Notes under the pieces: model-generated
The model's database searches: none
What the model was told of the DNA's origin: nothing
What the model saw: the letters and a program-made list of their open reading frames with translations, nothing else
Position numbers and translations under genes: made by a program
Assembly: GCF_016863315.1 (NCBI RefSeq)
Contig: NZ_BOOQ01000030.1
Location: 62,001-126,000 of the forward strand
DNA: 64,000 nucleotides
Direction of reading: 5' to 3'
From: Planotetraspora silvatica
GTDB taxonomy: Bacteria > Actinomycetota > Actinomycetes > Streptosporangiales > Streptosporangiaceae
Shown here: positions 58,827-62,376 of the stretch, piece after piece
Position numbering within the stretch: position 1 is the first letter of the stretch
How the letters are laid out: each line of letters opens with the position of its first letter

Positions 58827-60869
58827 TCAGCCGGCGTGCTGCGCCGTGCAGGGACGGCCGCCGCAGACGTCGACCACCACGCCGTATTTCAGGAAGTCCG
58901 CCTTCTGACGGCGGGCCGTCGCGTCCGCACGCGGGTCCTCATGGGAGTCGGTGCCGTACTGCTCGCCCAGCGGAGGCGTGTTGGTCACCGGGGGAGCGGG
59001 CGTGCCGCTGTCCCAGACGACCATCGCCGACCCCTGGTACGGCCGGCCCGGCAGCGCCGGGATGCCCCAGTAGGGGGCGACGTCGGGGTTGCGGCCCGCC
59101 GCGATCGCGGGCCGGTGGATGCGGGCGCCGATCGTCCGCGCCTCGACCTCGGCGGTGACCGTCGACACCTGGTGGTCACCGAACGCCACGTGCATCAGGA
59201 TGCGGTGACGCGGTGAGCCGGGGAGCGGGTCGTCGCCCAGATGCTGGGCGTACCCGTCGGTCTCGGCCCGGTCCCACAGGATCTGGATCAGCCCGAAGCA
59301 GAGCTGCTGGTCCAGCTTGTCGGGGTAGTAGCCGTCCATGACCTGCTGGAAGGGCTGGAAGTCGACGCTCCGGTTGAGCAAGGTGCTGTAGTTCATCCCG
59401 GAGACCCCGAGCACGCCCCTGCTCACATCCGGCGACACCGCGACCAGCGCGCCGCCCGCGATGGAGCCCTGGCTGTTGCCGTCGTAGGCCAGGTCCGCAT
59501 GCCGGTCGATCAGCGGGCGTCCCCTGTCGTCCTGGAACGCCTCGTCGGCGGCGAGCCCGTCCTTGGTGATCATCATGCGGCCGAGGAACACGAAGTTCAC
59601 CAGGCTCTGCTGAAGCCGATCAGCCACGGTGTCGAAGCGGGAGAAGTCGGCGAACACCCCACTGACGTTCGGGATGTCCTCATCGGCCATGCCGATCCAT
59701 TTGGTGGCGCAGAACAGGAAGTCGTGCTCGCCCGCCATGGCCCTGACATTCGAGGCCCGGACCTCCGTCGCCTTGCCGAGCAGGCCGTGCCCGTACAGGG
59801 AGGGGCGCGCGGGCCTGCTGAACGCGGCACGCGGGATCTCGCACTGGAACTGGGCGCGCAGGTCGTCACCGAGCGGCTTCGGCCTGCCGGAGGCGTCGCG
59901 GTTCAGCACGGATCCGGGCGGGCCGCCCGCCTTGTTGAGGAAGTTGGGCACGAGGAACTCGCCCGTGACCTCGCGGGCGATGTTCGCGTCCTGCTGGGGG
60001 GTGAAGTCGGTGACGGTCGTGACGGTGAACTTCGGCGACCGGCCGCGCAACTGGCCGAGTGCCTGATCCCGCATCCGCAGCACGGGTCCGGCGAGCCCCT
60101 GCTCGCTGGCGACGGTGAAGTCCCAGGCCAGGTAGAGATTCTTGGTGCTCACCCCCGCGCGGGCGACGTCGTGGAGAGTCCGCCGGAGCGCGGACTGCCG
60201 CCCGGCCAGCGGGTCCTTCGCGGGGAGCGTCCTCCCGGCGAGGCGGGTGAACGTCCCGGGGGCGGCGATCCGGGATCCGGAGGCGTTCTTGAGGTCCCTG
60301 AGGACGACGGCGTAGCGGTGGCCCTCACGGAAGTTCTTCGCAGGGCGGATGATCAGGGCCTGCCGCGCCGGGTCGGTCGCGTTGGCGTCGAGTTCCGCCC
60401 AGTACGGCCAGCGCTCGCCCGTCCGGGTGTCCACGATGACGATCGGGGCGTCCCGCTTCAGGGACCTCGCGACGTCCGTCACCGGAGCGGCGCCGGTCGC
60501 GCCGAGATCGAGGCCGGGAACATGGGCGAGCAGCATCGAGCCCGGTGAGAACCCGTCGGAGAGGTTCCACGCCGCCGGGTCGATGCCCTTGCCCGCGACG
60601 TTCTTGGGCGTCATCGCGCTGGTGAGGTCGAGGCGGAGCCCGGTCGGCGTGTGGGCGCTCGTCGTGAACCAGTCGTTGGGGAAGGGGAGCAGGCAGTCGG
60701 TCCCGGCGATGGGATCGCATCCGGAGCCGGGCGGAGACGTGGACGGGGTGGATCCGGCCGAGGCGGTGGGCGTGGCCGAGGCGGTGGGCGCGGCCAGCGC
60801 GGGCGCCGCCGAGCCCGCGATCACCGATGCTGTCAGGGTCAAGATGGAGAACGCTCGATGTAAGCGCAC
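58827..60869 (-). CDS. Secreted alpha/beta hydrolase (lipase/esterase-like)
   Basis: GTG 60869 is preceded by GGGAGGG and begins a signal peptide (RLHRAFSILTLTASVIAG, cleavage after APALA). The protein is 680 residues. After a Ser/Thr/Pro linker comes PPGSGCDPIAGTDCLLPFPN, a region related to bacterial virulence-factor lipases, with a central hydrolase core: SLYGHGLLGKATEV (oxyanion region), nucleophile elbow YDGNSQGSIAGG with Ser in G-N-S-Q-G, and a late HVAFGDHQVST that may supply the catalytic His. Paired cysteines and export suggest an extracellular lipase or esterase. Divergent from the GH25 gene with the 53-bp repeat array between. Confidence 0.85.
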   Translation of the reverse strand: MRLHRAFSILTLTASVIAGSAAPALAAPTASATPTASAGSTPSTSPPGSGCDPIAGTDCLLPFPNDWFTTSAHTPTGLRLDLTSAMTPKNVAGKGIDPAAWNLSDGFSPGSMLLAHVPGLDLGATGAAPVTDVARSLKRDAPIVIVDTRTGERWPYWAELDANATDPARQALIIRPAKNFREGHRYAVVLRDLKNASGSRIAAPGTFTRLAGRTLPAKDPLAGRQSALRRTLHDVARAGVSTKNLYLAWDFTVASEQGLAGPVLRMRDQALGQLRGRSPKFTVTTVTDFTPQQDANIAREVTGEFLVPNFLNKAGGPPGSVLNRDASGRPKPLGDDLRAQFQCEIPRAAFSRPARPSLYGHGLLGKATEVRASNVRAMAGEHDFLFCATKWIGMADEDIPNVSGVFADFSRFDTVADRLQQSLVNFVFLGRMMITKDGLAADEAFQDDRGRPLIDRHADLAYDGNSQGSIAGGALVAVSPDVSRGVLGVSGMNYSTLLNRSVDFQPFQQVMDGYYPDKLDQQLCFGLIQILWDRAETDGYAQHLGDDPLPGSPRHRILMHVAFGDHQVSTVTAEVEARTIGARIHRPAIAAGRNPDVAPYWGIPALPGRPYQGSAMVVWDSGTPAPPVTNTPPLGEQYGTDSHEDPRADATARRQKADFLKYGVVVDVCGGRPCTAQHAG

Positions 60870-61006
60870 ATGCCCTCCCGGTCCGTACTTCTCCGCTGAA
60901 GGTGACACCTGCGCTGAGATCTTTCAGGGGAAATGATCAGATTGCAATGATCTATAACTAATCGACCGTTTATCCGATACCTACCGGAGGGCCGGCCATC
61001 CCCCGG

Positions 61007-61322
61007 CGTGATCATGCACACATTCGGGGAAGTGTGCGCCGACCTGGGCATTCTCGAATCGTGATCATGCGCAGGTTCGCTTCCACTCCCGCCTACCTGC
61101 GCTTTCGGGCTGCGTGATCATGCATTGACCGGGTTCGCCGCACGGCCATCGAACAACCCCCCGGTCCGGCACGCCTTTCGATGAACAAGTCACCCAAGGA
61201 CAAATGCATGATCGTGAAAGACGCTTTGCCTGGTCCACCCGCTTCTCAGCGAACCTGTGCATGATCACGCCGGATGAACGCCCAGGTCGACGGACCCTTC
61301 CTCGAATCCATGCATGATCACG
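61007..61322. repeat. Mirror-symmetric array of six 53-bp repeats
   Basis: CGTGATCATGCA or a close variant starts on the plus strand at 61007, 61060 and 61113, and on the minus strand at 61322, 61269 and 61216: exactly 53 bp apart in each arm. Similarity continues beyond the core: first and last units share ATTCG, GGAAG and CGACCTGGGC at identical offsets, and the second and fifth share CAGGTTCGCT. The third and fourth are the most diverged (61216 reads CACGATCATGCA). Fifty-three bp is close to five helical turns, so the cores lie on one face of the DNA. The array fills the divergent gap between the secreted hydrolase and the GH25 leader; no gene is seen in 60870-61507. Confidence 0.9.
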
Positions 61323-61507
61323 CCCGGCGAAAGCGCAGGGCGGAAACTGGGGAACTTTGTCCTATTTACACCCCTATGGTGCTGTGTGTACCTTTAGCCT
61401 CCACGGCACGCACAACGATGACTCCCATCGTCGTTTCCGTTGCCGGTTCGTTGGCCAGACCGTGCGTCCGGCGGGACCCGTCCCGTCAGGAGCGTACGGC
61501 CGTCGAG

Positions 61508-61634
61508 TCCGTACCTCACGGAGCCGGGGACCCACTATTCCGGGGTGAATCGGAGCGCTGACCCCCAGTCGGCCGCACCGTAGGGCACTTCCTGCCCGAA
61601 CCCGTCAGCTAACCCGGTAGGCGGCATGGAAGCA
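61508..61634 (+). ncRNA. Cyclic di-AMP (ydaO/yuaA) riboswitch
   Basis: The leader before the GH25 gene has the conserved blocks of the actinomycete ydaO-type aptamer in order: GAGCCGGGGACCCA near 61521, CCGGGGTGAATCGG at 61540-61553, a variable GC hairpin, CCGTAGGGCACTTCC near 61578, and CCCGAACCCGTCAGCTAACC then GGTAGGCGGC near 61595-61625. These elements precede Rpf, NlpC/P60 and lysozyme-like cell-wall hydrolase genes in actinomycetes and switch them off when c-di-AMP binds. Confidence 0.88.
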
Positions 61635-61647
61635 AGGAGTCAACCCC

Positions 61648-62376
61648 TTGATGCCCACCCATCGGATCTCCCCGACCTCTCTCAGACACCGGCTGAACCT
61701 CGCCGGCAGGCGACTGTGCGTCGTCGTCGCCGGTGCGACCGCGGCCGCGTCTGTCGTCACGGCCCCCCTCGTCCACGCCGTCCCGGCGCACGCCGCCGCG
61801 TTCACCTATGGGCAAGACGTCTCCGGTTACGAGGCGGACCATGACTGGAGCGCCAGCTCGGCGGAGTTCGGCATCGTCAAGGCCACCGAGGGCCTGAGCT
61901 TCCTCGATCCCGCCTTCGCCCGGCACTGGCAGGAGCTGGACAAGAAGGGCATCGTGCGCGGGGCGTACCACTACGGCCATCCCGGCAACGACCCCATCGC
62001 CGAGGCCGACTACTTCCTCTCCGTGGTGAACCAGCAGCCCGCCAAGCCCGGAGACCTGCTGGTGCTGGACCTGGAGACCACCGACGGGGAGTCGGTCGCC
62101 GACGTCAACACGTGGGCGAAGAGGTGGCTGGAGTACGTGAAGGCCAAGACCGGCGTCACCCCCATGTTCTACAGCGGCTGGGACTTCGCCGACACCTACG
62201 GCCACGGCCTGGGCGGCTATCCCTTGTGGGTGGCCTACTACGGCCGGGCCAAGGGCGACGTGACTCCGCCGGCCGACTGGAAGACCTGGACCATCCACCA
62301 GTACACCGACACCCCCATCGACCAGAACGTCTCCTCCCTGAGCCCCCAGCAGTTGCGCGCACTCGGCCGCCGCTGA
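61648..62376 (+). CDS. Secreted GH25 lysozyme
   Basis: Start is TTG 61648 (AAGGAG eight bases upstream) or the adjacent ATG 61651. The protein is 242 residues. A signal peptide with a long basic start ends near VPAHAAA. The mature part is a single GH25 muramidase domain: GQDVSGYEADHDW with Asp57, FGIVKATEGLSF, GAYHYGHPGNDP, catalytic pair LVLDLETTDG (Asp141, Glu143), and PMFYSGWDFADTY, PLWVAYYG, WTIHQYTDTPIDQNV at the end of the barrel. It hydrolyses the MurNAc-GlcNAc bond of peptidoglycan. No cell-wall-binding module is attached. Expression is governed by the c-di-AMP leader. Confidence 0.95.
   Translation: MMPTHRISPTSLRHRLNLAGRRLCVVVAGATAAASVVTAPLVHAVPAHAAAFTYGQDVSGYEADHDWSASSAEFGIVKATEGLSFLDPAFARHWQELDKKGIVRGAYHYGHPGNDPIAEADYFLSVVNQQPAKPGDLLVLDLETTDGESVADVNTWAKRWLEYVKAKTGVTPMFYSGWDFADTYGHGLGGYPLWVAYYGRAKGDVTPPADWKTWTIHQYTDTPIDQNVSSLSPQQLRALGRR

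Follow-up and report, generated by a model that had tools for sequence, protein, structure and literature searches.

Phased, inward-facing arrays of a conserved DNA core form a genome-wide family at gene borders in Planotetraspora

The window array and its neighbours

The window is the whole stretch of DNA analysed here, 64,000 nucleotides of the Planotetraspora silvatica genome (8.66 Mb in 117 contigs). Near its end, between a gene for a secreted serine-hydrolase-like protein and a GH25 lysozyme-like gene, lies an array of six short cores arranged in two facing arms. The features of the locus are as follows, with positions counted from the first letter of the window:

58827..60908, minus strand: left neighbour, a secreted serine-hydrolase-like protein (named by eye; start uncertain), divergent from the array
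60953..61343, no strand: segment without counterpart in P. mira (from alignment with relatives)
61007..61112, plus strand: two full 53-bp unit steps of the left arm
61007..61018, plus strand: core 1, exact CGTGATCATGCA, outermost in the left arm
61060..61071, plus strand: core 2, with a single mismatch (ends ATGCG)
61113..61124, plus strand: core 3, exact, innermost in the left arm; the unit consensus is not found 3′ of it
61125..61204, no strand: array centre, 80 bp separating the innermost facing cores
61205..61216, minus strand: core 4, with two mismatches (TGATCA broken), innermost in the right arm
61217..61322, minus strand: two full 53-bp unit steps of the right arm
61258..61269, minus strand: core 5, exact
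61311..61322, minus strand: core 6, exact, outermost in the right arm
61491..61638, plus strand: c-di-AMP riboswitch (Rfam RF00379, 78.3 bits)
61648..62376, plus strand: right neighbour, a GH25 lysozyme-like gene (start approximate)

A preliminary description of this DNA had reported six cores, spaced by 53 bp and mirrored, and this is borne out: plus-strand cores begin at 61007, 61060 and 61113 and minus-strand cores end at 61216, 61269 and 61322, with steps of 53 bp in both arms and a midpoint at 61164.5. Four of the six cores match CGTGATCATGCA exactly. When up to two mismatches are allowed, the window contains 17 matches where 5.66 are expected, a number reached by none of 100 shuffles. 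Over 83 nt, the outer arms (60999-61081 and 61248-61330) reach 80% complementarity. The units had also been described as pairing across the centre (1 with 6, 2 with 5, 3 with 4), which holds for the outermost pair and fails for the inner ones: over 23 variable columns in 17 arrays, pairing amounts to 0.57 at the outer step and 0.30 at the one inside it, with unmatched offsets of the same columns giving 0.31-0.40 in five of six cases and 0.446 in the sixth (n=4). Pairing of whole arms was considered as a general feature and rejected, being weak and seen in a minority of arrays. The array was said to be neither CRISPR nor a simple operator, and we concur; as for CRISPR, the arms are oppositely oriented and the would-be spacers contain conserved patches that are common between species.

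The left neighbour (58827..60908) has no Pfam hit. On the right, the c-di-AMP riboswitch mentioned in the preliminary description is confirmed at 61491-61638, with the GH25 gene next to it. Three relatives, P. mira, P. phitsanulokensis and P. kaengkrachanensis, have both flanking genes and lack the window array; in place of 60953-61343 (391 bp) they carry about 5, 24 and 39 unrelated bp, respectively, and P. mira is 97% identical on the left and 94% on the right. For a further Planotetraspora genome (G001), the right flank alone aligned. As the riboswitch stretch is retained in the array-less relatives, the riboswitch is a neighbour that lies outside the element. Likewise, the loss or lack of the array in relatives that keep both genes implies that it performs no conserved service to these two neighbours. 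The preliminary description had itself named such an absence as a refuting outcome, and the joint control of exported enzymes that it proposed is not supported.

The window array and part of an array on another contig of the same genome (C26, ~187.4-188.1 kb) are 84% identical over ~350 bp. At the C26 place, P. mira has a lone core, G001 a bare CGTGATCACG at a stop codon, P. kaengkrachanensis two other genes (aldo/keto-reductase-like and MerR-like, by eye) and P. phitsanulokensis a gap of roughly equal size. This difference between species, together with the likeness of the two arrays nearly end to end, indicates that an entire array can be duplicated elsewhere or lost. The window array sits in a divergent promoter region, which is an unusual place, and it seems to have been either gained or retained there.

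The array family in Planotetraspora

The window array belongs to a conserved family of DNA sites that are regularly spaced and occur throughout the genome. The array has at least 300 blastn matches in its own genome, which contains 998 exact copies of GTGATCATGC (498 and 500 by strand). The reversed string has 0 copies; since it contains CTAG, which is rare in such genomes, the 38-58 core copies found in 11 of the 20 genomes counted are a fairer yardstick. On 800 kb of the P. silvatica genome, arrays contain or adjoin 116 of the 119 exact cores (contig C2, 1-400 kb: 74 of 75; C3, 1-400 kb: 42 of 44), from which we extrapolate roughly 150-200 arrays in this genome. The 53-bp tandem pattern occurs in all five Planotetraspora genomes and in none of 55 others in the same search, with 132 matches in P. 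phitsanulokensis and 571-729 in the other four. The preliminary description had set random scatter of the units, as a generic short repeat, against its own reading; the units are indeed scattered over the genome, but the scatter is not random, the units being grouped in ordered arrays. We file the family as a kind of dispersed extragenic repeat.

The 53-bp unit has the consensus CGTGATCATGCACAGgTTCG-N13-ccGACCtGcgc-nnaCnc-N4 (173 unit steps from three species, partly orthologous). Within it, the half-site spans ~20 bp and comprises a constant core, GTGATCATGCA, and a lineage-specific extension (CAGgTTCG here). The unit consensus is not found after innermost cores, and outermost cores are preceded by a C-rich stretch (C 0.50, G 0.20 over 25 bp, n=82). 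Spacing is strict: in an unfiltered count of 237 exact cores with another to follow on their strand within 200 bp, the following one is 53 bp away in 210 cases and 52 bp away in 12, the remainder being spread over ten other distances. Within P. silvatica arrays, 237 of 254 steps measure 53 bp, 16 measure 52 bp and one 54 bp; these counts are filtered, because the array finder accepts a site only if another lies 52-54 or 105-107 bp away on its strand. A length of 53 bp corresponds to five helical turns.

All 41 two-armed arrays face inward (30 in P. silvatica and 11 in two relatives, partly orthologous). An arm contains 3-6 cores in 28 two-armed arrays and 3-5 in 21 single arms, and the sizes of opposite arms are weakly matched (P=0.07, the same 28 arrays). 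Centre lengths in P. silvatica cluster at 36-37 bp (11 cases), 48, 59, 70, 80-82 and above. Up to 112 bp their best period is 11.0 bp, with none of 2000 jittered sets as strong; significance is lost when distinct lengths alone are used (P=0.056).

Single arms within 3 kb of each other also face inward (5 of 5 pairs), as if bracketing a gene, with one or two ordinary genes between them (loci L244, L245, L246, L252 and L257 of P. silvatica). We considered these genes as cargo and rejected the idea, as they are ordinary by eye (an ABC-transporter ATPase, a thiolase-like protein and others); no transposase was noticed in the translations between close single arms, inspected by eye. Among single arms ~5 kb apart, one outward pair was seen, plus its orthologue.

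Arrays sit at gene borders, typically close behind genes. With genes called by a simple codon-usage script, 49 of 52 P. silvatica arrays could be assigned a setting (three at stretch ends had one side without a called gene): 28 tandem, 14 convergent and 7 divergent, including the window array. Against all gaps of at least 100 bp, array-bearing ones included (291 tandem, 84 convergent, 149 divergent), odds ratios are 2.3 for convergent (P=0.022) and 0.39 for divergent settings (P=0.020). As 30 of the 49 came from stretches chosen for likeness to the window array, a contiguous sample of 19 arrays is less biased, and it holds 9 tandem, 7 convergent and 3 divergent cases. The convergent bias in Planotetraspora is modest, and avoidance of promoters could be its cause. 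The array edge lies at a median of 20 bp from a gene 3′ end (n=56) and 85 bp from a gene 5′ end (n=42), and the TGA inside the outer core serves as the gene's stop codon in 9 of the 56. A role in stopping translation, with one TGA per 53 bp and all frames covered after three units, was rejected since it leaves the other conserved core bases unexplained. Single-arm arrays in tandem settings have no clear polarity relative to transcription (8 with, 6 against).

Between species, places and cores are mostly kept while the sequence around the cores changes. Collinear stretches of P. silvatica C2, P. kaengkrachanensis C1 and P. mira C1 carry 13 arrays each. P. silvatica arrays with both flanks aligned recur at the same place in P. 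mira without exception (11 of 11) and in P. kaengkrachanensis in all but one case (11 of 12). The TGATCATGC core diverges by 1.1% between P. silvatica and P. mira, compared with 17% for the variable columns (20-32 of the unit) and 10% for 150-bp flanks. The corresponding values are 1.6%, 42% and 19% between P. kaengkrachanensis and P. mira, and 5.6%, 38% and 20% between P. silvatica and P. kaengkrachanensis. Core divergence leaves out deletions, and the arrays compared were selected for having cores; with this proviso, it is 7 to 26 times below that of the columns between cores. Judged from these alignments, every core is under strong purifying selection.

Unit numbers vary between orthologous arrays. 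At 10 orthologous places, P. phitsanulokensis has an array of 2-4 cores at seven; another holds three dispersed sites with one mismatch each, and the last two hold almost nothing. Its core number equals that of P. kaengkrachanensis at two of the 10 places and is lower at the remainder. Decay of the arrays in this species was considered and rejected: they are shorter, yet most surviving cores are exact or one mismatch away.

Facing pairs and dialects in other genera

Outside Planotetraspora, a few other actinomycete families carry the core as single inverted pairs. Across the order, the three-core pattern was found in 9 of 345 genomes: the five Planotetraspora genomes, G105 (251 matches), G074 (4), G034 (1) and G296 (5). 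The matches in G034 and G296 lack the continuation as GTGATCATGC and look unrelated, so they were dropped as family members. G105 belongs to another genus in which the sites have been amplified into arrays; its cores are mostly 52-53 bp apart, and two-armed groups face inward. Raised core counts (104-268) were found in G074, G075 ('Actinomadura sp. HBU206391'), G078, G079, G028 and G130. In G074, G075 and G028 a core stands at either end of short palindromes, giving 22, 35 and 48 facing pairs. Genomes G078, G079 and G130 have 215, 104 and 136 cores, yet 1, 1 and 6 facing pairs, which implies some other arrangement of sites. A congener of G074 and G075 (212 and 268 cores), G076 (86% complete), has a background count of 49, a natural gain-or-loss contrast for tracing the binding protein.

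In a class-wide search, facing pairs occurred in 7 of 393 genomes: 29 in P. silvatica, 44 in G445 (pairs of at most 60 bp), 21 in G498, 13 in G582, 6 in G395 and one each in two further genomes. We read 8 of the 21 pairs of G498, 1 of 13 in G582, 10 in G445 and 6 of 6 in G395. Of these 25, 16 are convergent, 8 tandem and 1 divergent (P=9e-8 for convergent settings against the P. silvatica background), with several gene calls doubtful. A 'CTGACC' string 5′ of the palindromes was rejected as a motif, because in several cases it is the stop codon of the neighbouring gene (by eye).

The core stays constant and the extension next to it changes between lineages. Four Planotetraspora species have the dialect ACAGgTTCG in common, and G001 has AGAAgTTCGG (2 units only). 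Elsewhere, the dialects are AGTTGTTCGC in G074, aGTTTTgagC in G028, ACaGaTTCCC in G105, ACGTTCGCCC in G498, ACGcCAGCGC in G582 and AATCCCGCCA in G395, those of G498, G582 and G395 being taken from one locus each plus 8, 5 and 6 listed copies. G498 and G582 belong to one genus and have a pair at the same place behind a thiL-like kinase gene (by eye), where the two palindromes (L292, L293) are identical in the core and entirely different in arm sequence. Within each genome the listed copies (8 of 21 in G498, 5 of 13 in G582) nearly agree. From these copies, site specificity seems to have been rewritten genome-wide between G498 and G582. With the core constant and the extension switching at many sites together, the family may offer a natural experiment in rewriting genome-wide binding specificity.

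Helical phasing is also seen in the simple pairs. The lengths of 78 inverted pairs from G074 and G075 (of 81 facing pairs, three with an internal core being dropped) cluster near 40-42, 48-52, 57-61, 67-73, 80 and 89 bp, with a period of 9.9 bp (R=0.66) matched by none of 1000 uniform or 2000 jittered sets. Each genome alone gives the same picture (R=0.74 for G074 and 0.61 for G075; 0 of 1000 as strong). Such a period equals one helical turn.

Candidate roles and known systems

Taken together, a sequence-specific protein bound to one face of double-stranded DNA would account at once for the core, for the phasing and for the arms facing inward. Cooperative binding on one DNA face had been suggested before, and the phasing, as we infer, supports it. 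In the mechanism that we propose, a putative sequence-specific protein would fill the half-sites of an arm on one helix face and connect that arm with its inward-facing partner, or one site of a simple inverted pair with the other, thereby forming a compact or looped nucleoprotein complex. This complex would act as a boundary between transcription units, most likely as a roadblock to read-through or as a stop to the spread of supercoils. That the arrays are protein-binding sites marking such boundaries is our best explanation, and we hold it at slightly less than an even chance. Divergent arrays speak against a pure terminator, as does the absence of clear polarity, and both lend some weight to an insulator. 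The earlier hedge toward a chromosome-organisation site is supported. Several points weigh against the proposal: 7 of 49 arrays lie between divergent genes, where a terminator is not needed; P. phitsanulokensis manages on far fewer cores; the sizes of opposite arms are matched only weakly; single arms have no clear polarity; the convergent bias is modest; the phasing of centres loses significance for distinct lengths; and native arms pair slightly better than swapped ones.

An RNA-level element is unlikely, although it survives best among the alternatives. The sites would then be bidirectional hairpin or Rho-assisted terminators, or stabilisers of mRNA 3′ ends, for which their position behind stop codons and at convergent junctions would be apt, as would the C-rich sequence preceding outer cores. 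Transcripts are predicted to fold far better than shuffles, with z of -8.3 for the window array and means of -12.5 for 17 arrays (at least three cores per arm, at most 450 nt) and -7.9 for 21 palindromes. However, any inverted half-sites fold, which mostly explains this strong folding. Arms of the 24 arrays whose outer steps are strictly 53 bp pair a little better with their own partner than with one swapped in (-145.5 vs -139.9 kcal/mol; permutation P=0.004), but the gain is small; the own partner arm is best in 5 of the 24. No clear covariation or hairpin stem was found within the 53-bp unit, and the folded RNA/DNA structure offered as an alternative in the preliminary description is, given this and the small native-arm gain, unsupported as a conserved feature. 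Identity of arms within and between copies (0.84/0.82 in G074, 0.73/0.68 in G075, 0.73/0.67 in G028 and 0.39/0.32 in G105) is slightly higher within, as expected of half-sites. Behind the palindromes of other genera there is no U-tract; the 12 bases that follow are G-rich (G 0.63, T 0.08; 106 flanks), with T at most 0.18 at every position, and a length step of ~10 bp is unexpected of RNA. Rfam covariance models detect no family at the window array (RF00379 lies outside it) or at the arrays of 11 related loci. In one of the P. silvatica loci, a 6C RNA (RF01066; L246, 16708-16783) lies some kilobases from the arrays. As arm matching stems from shared half-sites more than from covariation, recognition is probably by protein on double-stranded DNA.

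A selfish element of the REP/BIME or MITE type, spread by a transposase (a RAYT, or one using Tn7-like multi-site ends), is marginally less probable still. Like such elements, the arrays are dispersed, extragenic, mirrored and multi-copy, their presence at a place differs between species, and the window array has its near-copy on C26. Passages of two papers describe REP/BIME elements as interspersed extragenic repeats, regularly spaced and mirrored, that prefer tandem or convergent intergenic regions; BIMEs bind gyrase and IHF, and REPs assist Rho-dependent termination (PMC2817692, PMC3733652). The arrays resemble the elements of these passages in being extragenic, multi-copy, mirrored and near gene 3′ ends. 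They differ in that their unit has no GTAG or CGTC tag and no clear hairpin, in a core of 10-11 bp that is constant across families and in the 53-bp direct repeats of each arm. The main text of a 2025 REP survey (PMC12306157) contains neither GTGATC, TGATCA nor 'Streptosporang'. Our transposase domain search covered Y1_Tnp/RAYT (PF01797) in 20 genomes; the domain is absent from P. silvatica and most site-rich genomes tested (G002-G004, that is P. phitsanulokensis, P. kaengkrachanensis and P. mira, as well as G105, G074, G075 and G028) and present in four (G001, G078, G110 and G030).

The ends of Tn7 (L and R) consist of several repeated protein sites per arm, with the arms facing inward, which the inward multi-site arms recall. 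In contrast to such ends, the arrays have no target duplication, and the flanked genes seen are ordinary. Over 41 arrays, 5-mer identity at the two sides is 0.32 compared with a mean shuffled maximum of 0.35 (largest 0.41), so the CCCGG that flanks the window array on either side probably arose by chance; in old copies, target duplications could have been lost. Cores conserved at fixed places between species are also unlike neutral insertions. The window array has no match in plasmid or phage collections. Eight pattern matches in viral contigs look coincidental by eye, and an AT-rich viral contig (L306, 3352-3577) carries an 18-bp tandem repeat containing GCATGATCAC that looks unrelated.

Functionless expansion of a minisatellite-like tandem repeat could account for the varying unit numbers of orthologous arrays and for neighbouring units being more alike than distant ones (0.446 vs 0.372), but it is largely refuted by the 7- to 26-fold lower divergence of the cores, and the fixed spacing, inward orientation and narrow range of arm sizes also speak against it; we give it very little weight.

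A signal akin to DNA uptake sequences (DUS) with species dialects is hardly credible either, and we know of no natural uptake of this type in these actinomycetes. The resemblance is in the constant core with lineage dialects, the ~1000 copies and the inverted pairs at gene ends, features that passages of a study of Neisseriaceae ascribe to DUS (PMC3630211). Single scattered cores, a DUS feature, are almost absent from the 800 kb of P. silvatica (3 of 119 outside arrays). Planotetraspora cores lie almost exclusively in phased arrays, and elsewhere in facing pairs; the dialect stands on one side of a long core, and a strict 53-bp phase is foreign to DUS. Least credible of all is a local operator jointly controlling the hydrolase and lysozyme genes, which the position between two divergent genes would suit, since three relatives without the array keep both genes and the right-hand leader and the same arrays occur at unrelated genes.

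Returning to protein-bound boundaries, ~1000 conserved, phased sites per genome at gene borders imply a dedicated and apparently undescribed DNA-binding factor, and the sites would offer a defined handle on how actinomycetes separate transcription units or organise their chromosome. A more specific version, in which an actinomycete factor reads the constant core together with an extension that changes in concert, and phased arrays serve as insulators or protein terminators, is possible, though less likely than not. A literature search, mostly of papers outside subscription journals, found no description of the array family among the matches listed: among the matches listed for the core string, none concerns bacterial genome repeats by title; none was found on BIMEs in actinobacteria, and a match for Planotetraspora repeats concerned Ms1 RNA.

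In eukaryotes, arrays of Sal boxes bound by TTF-I, which act as protein roadblock terminators, and convergent CTCF sites are oriented protein sites at gene ends or domain borders. It is possible, though we would not call it likely, that the arrays belong to a bacterial boundary system not described before, a counterpart of such oriented insulator sites in design and not by descent. The likeness to TTF-I and CTCF sites would be one of working, with no homology claimed.
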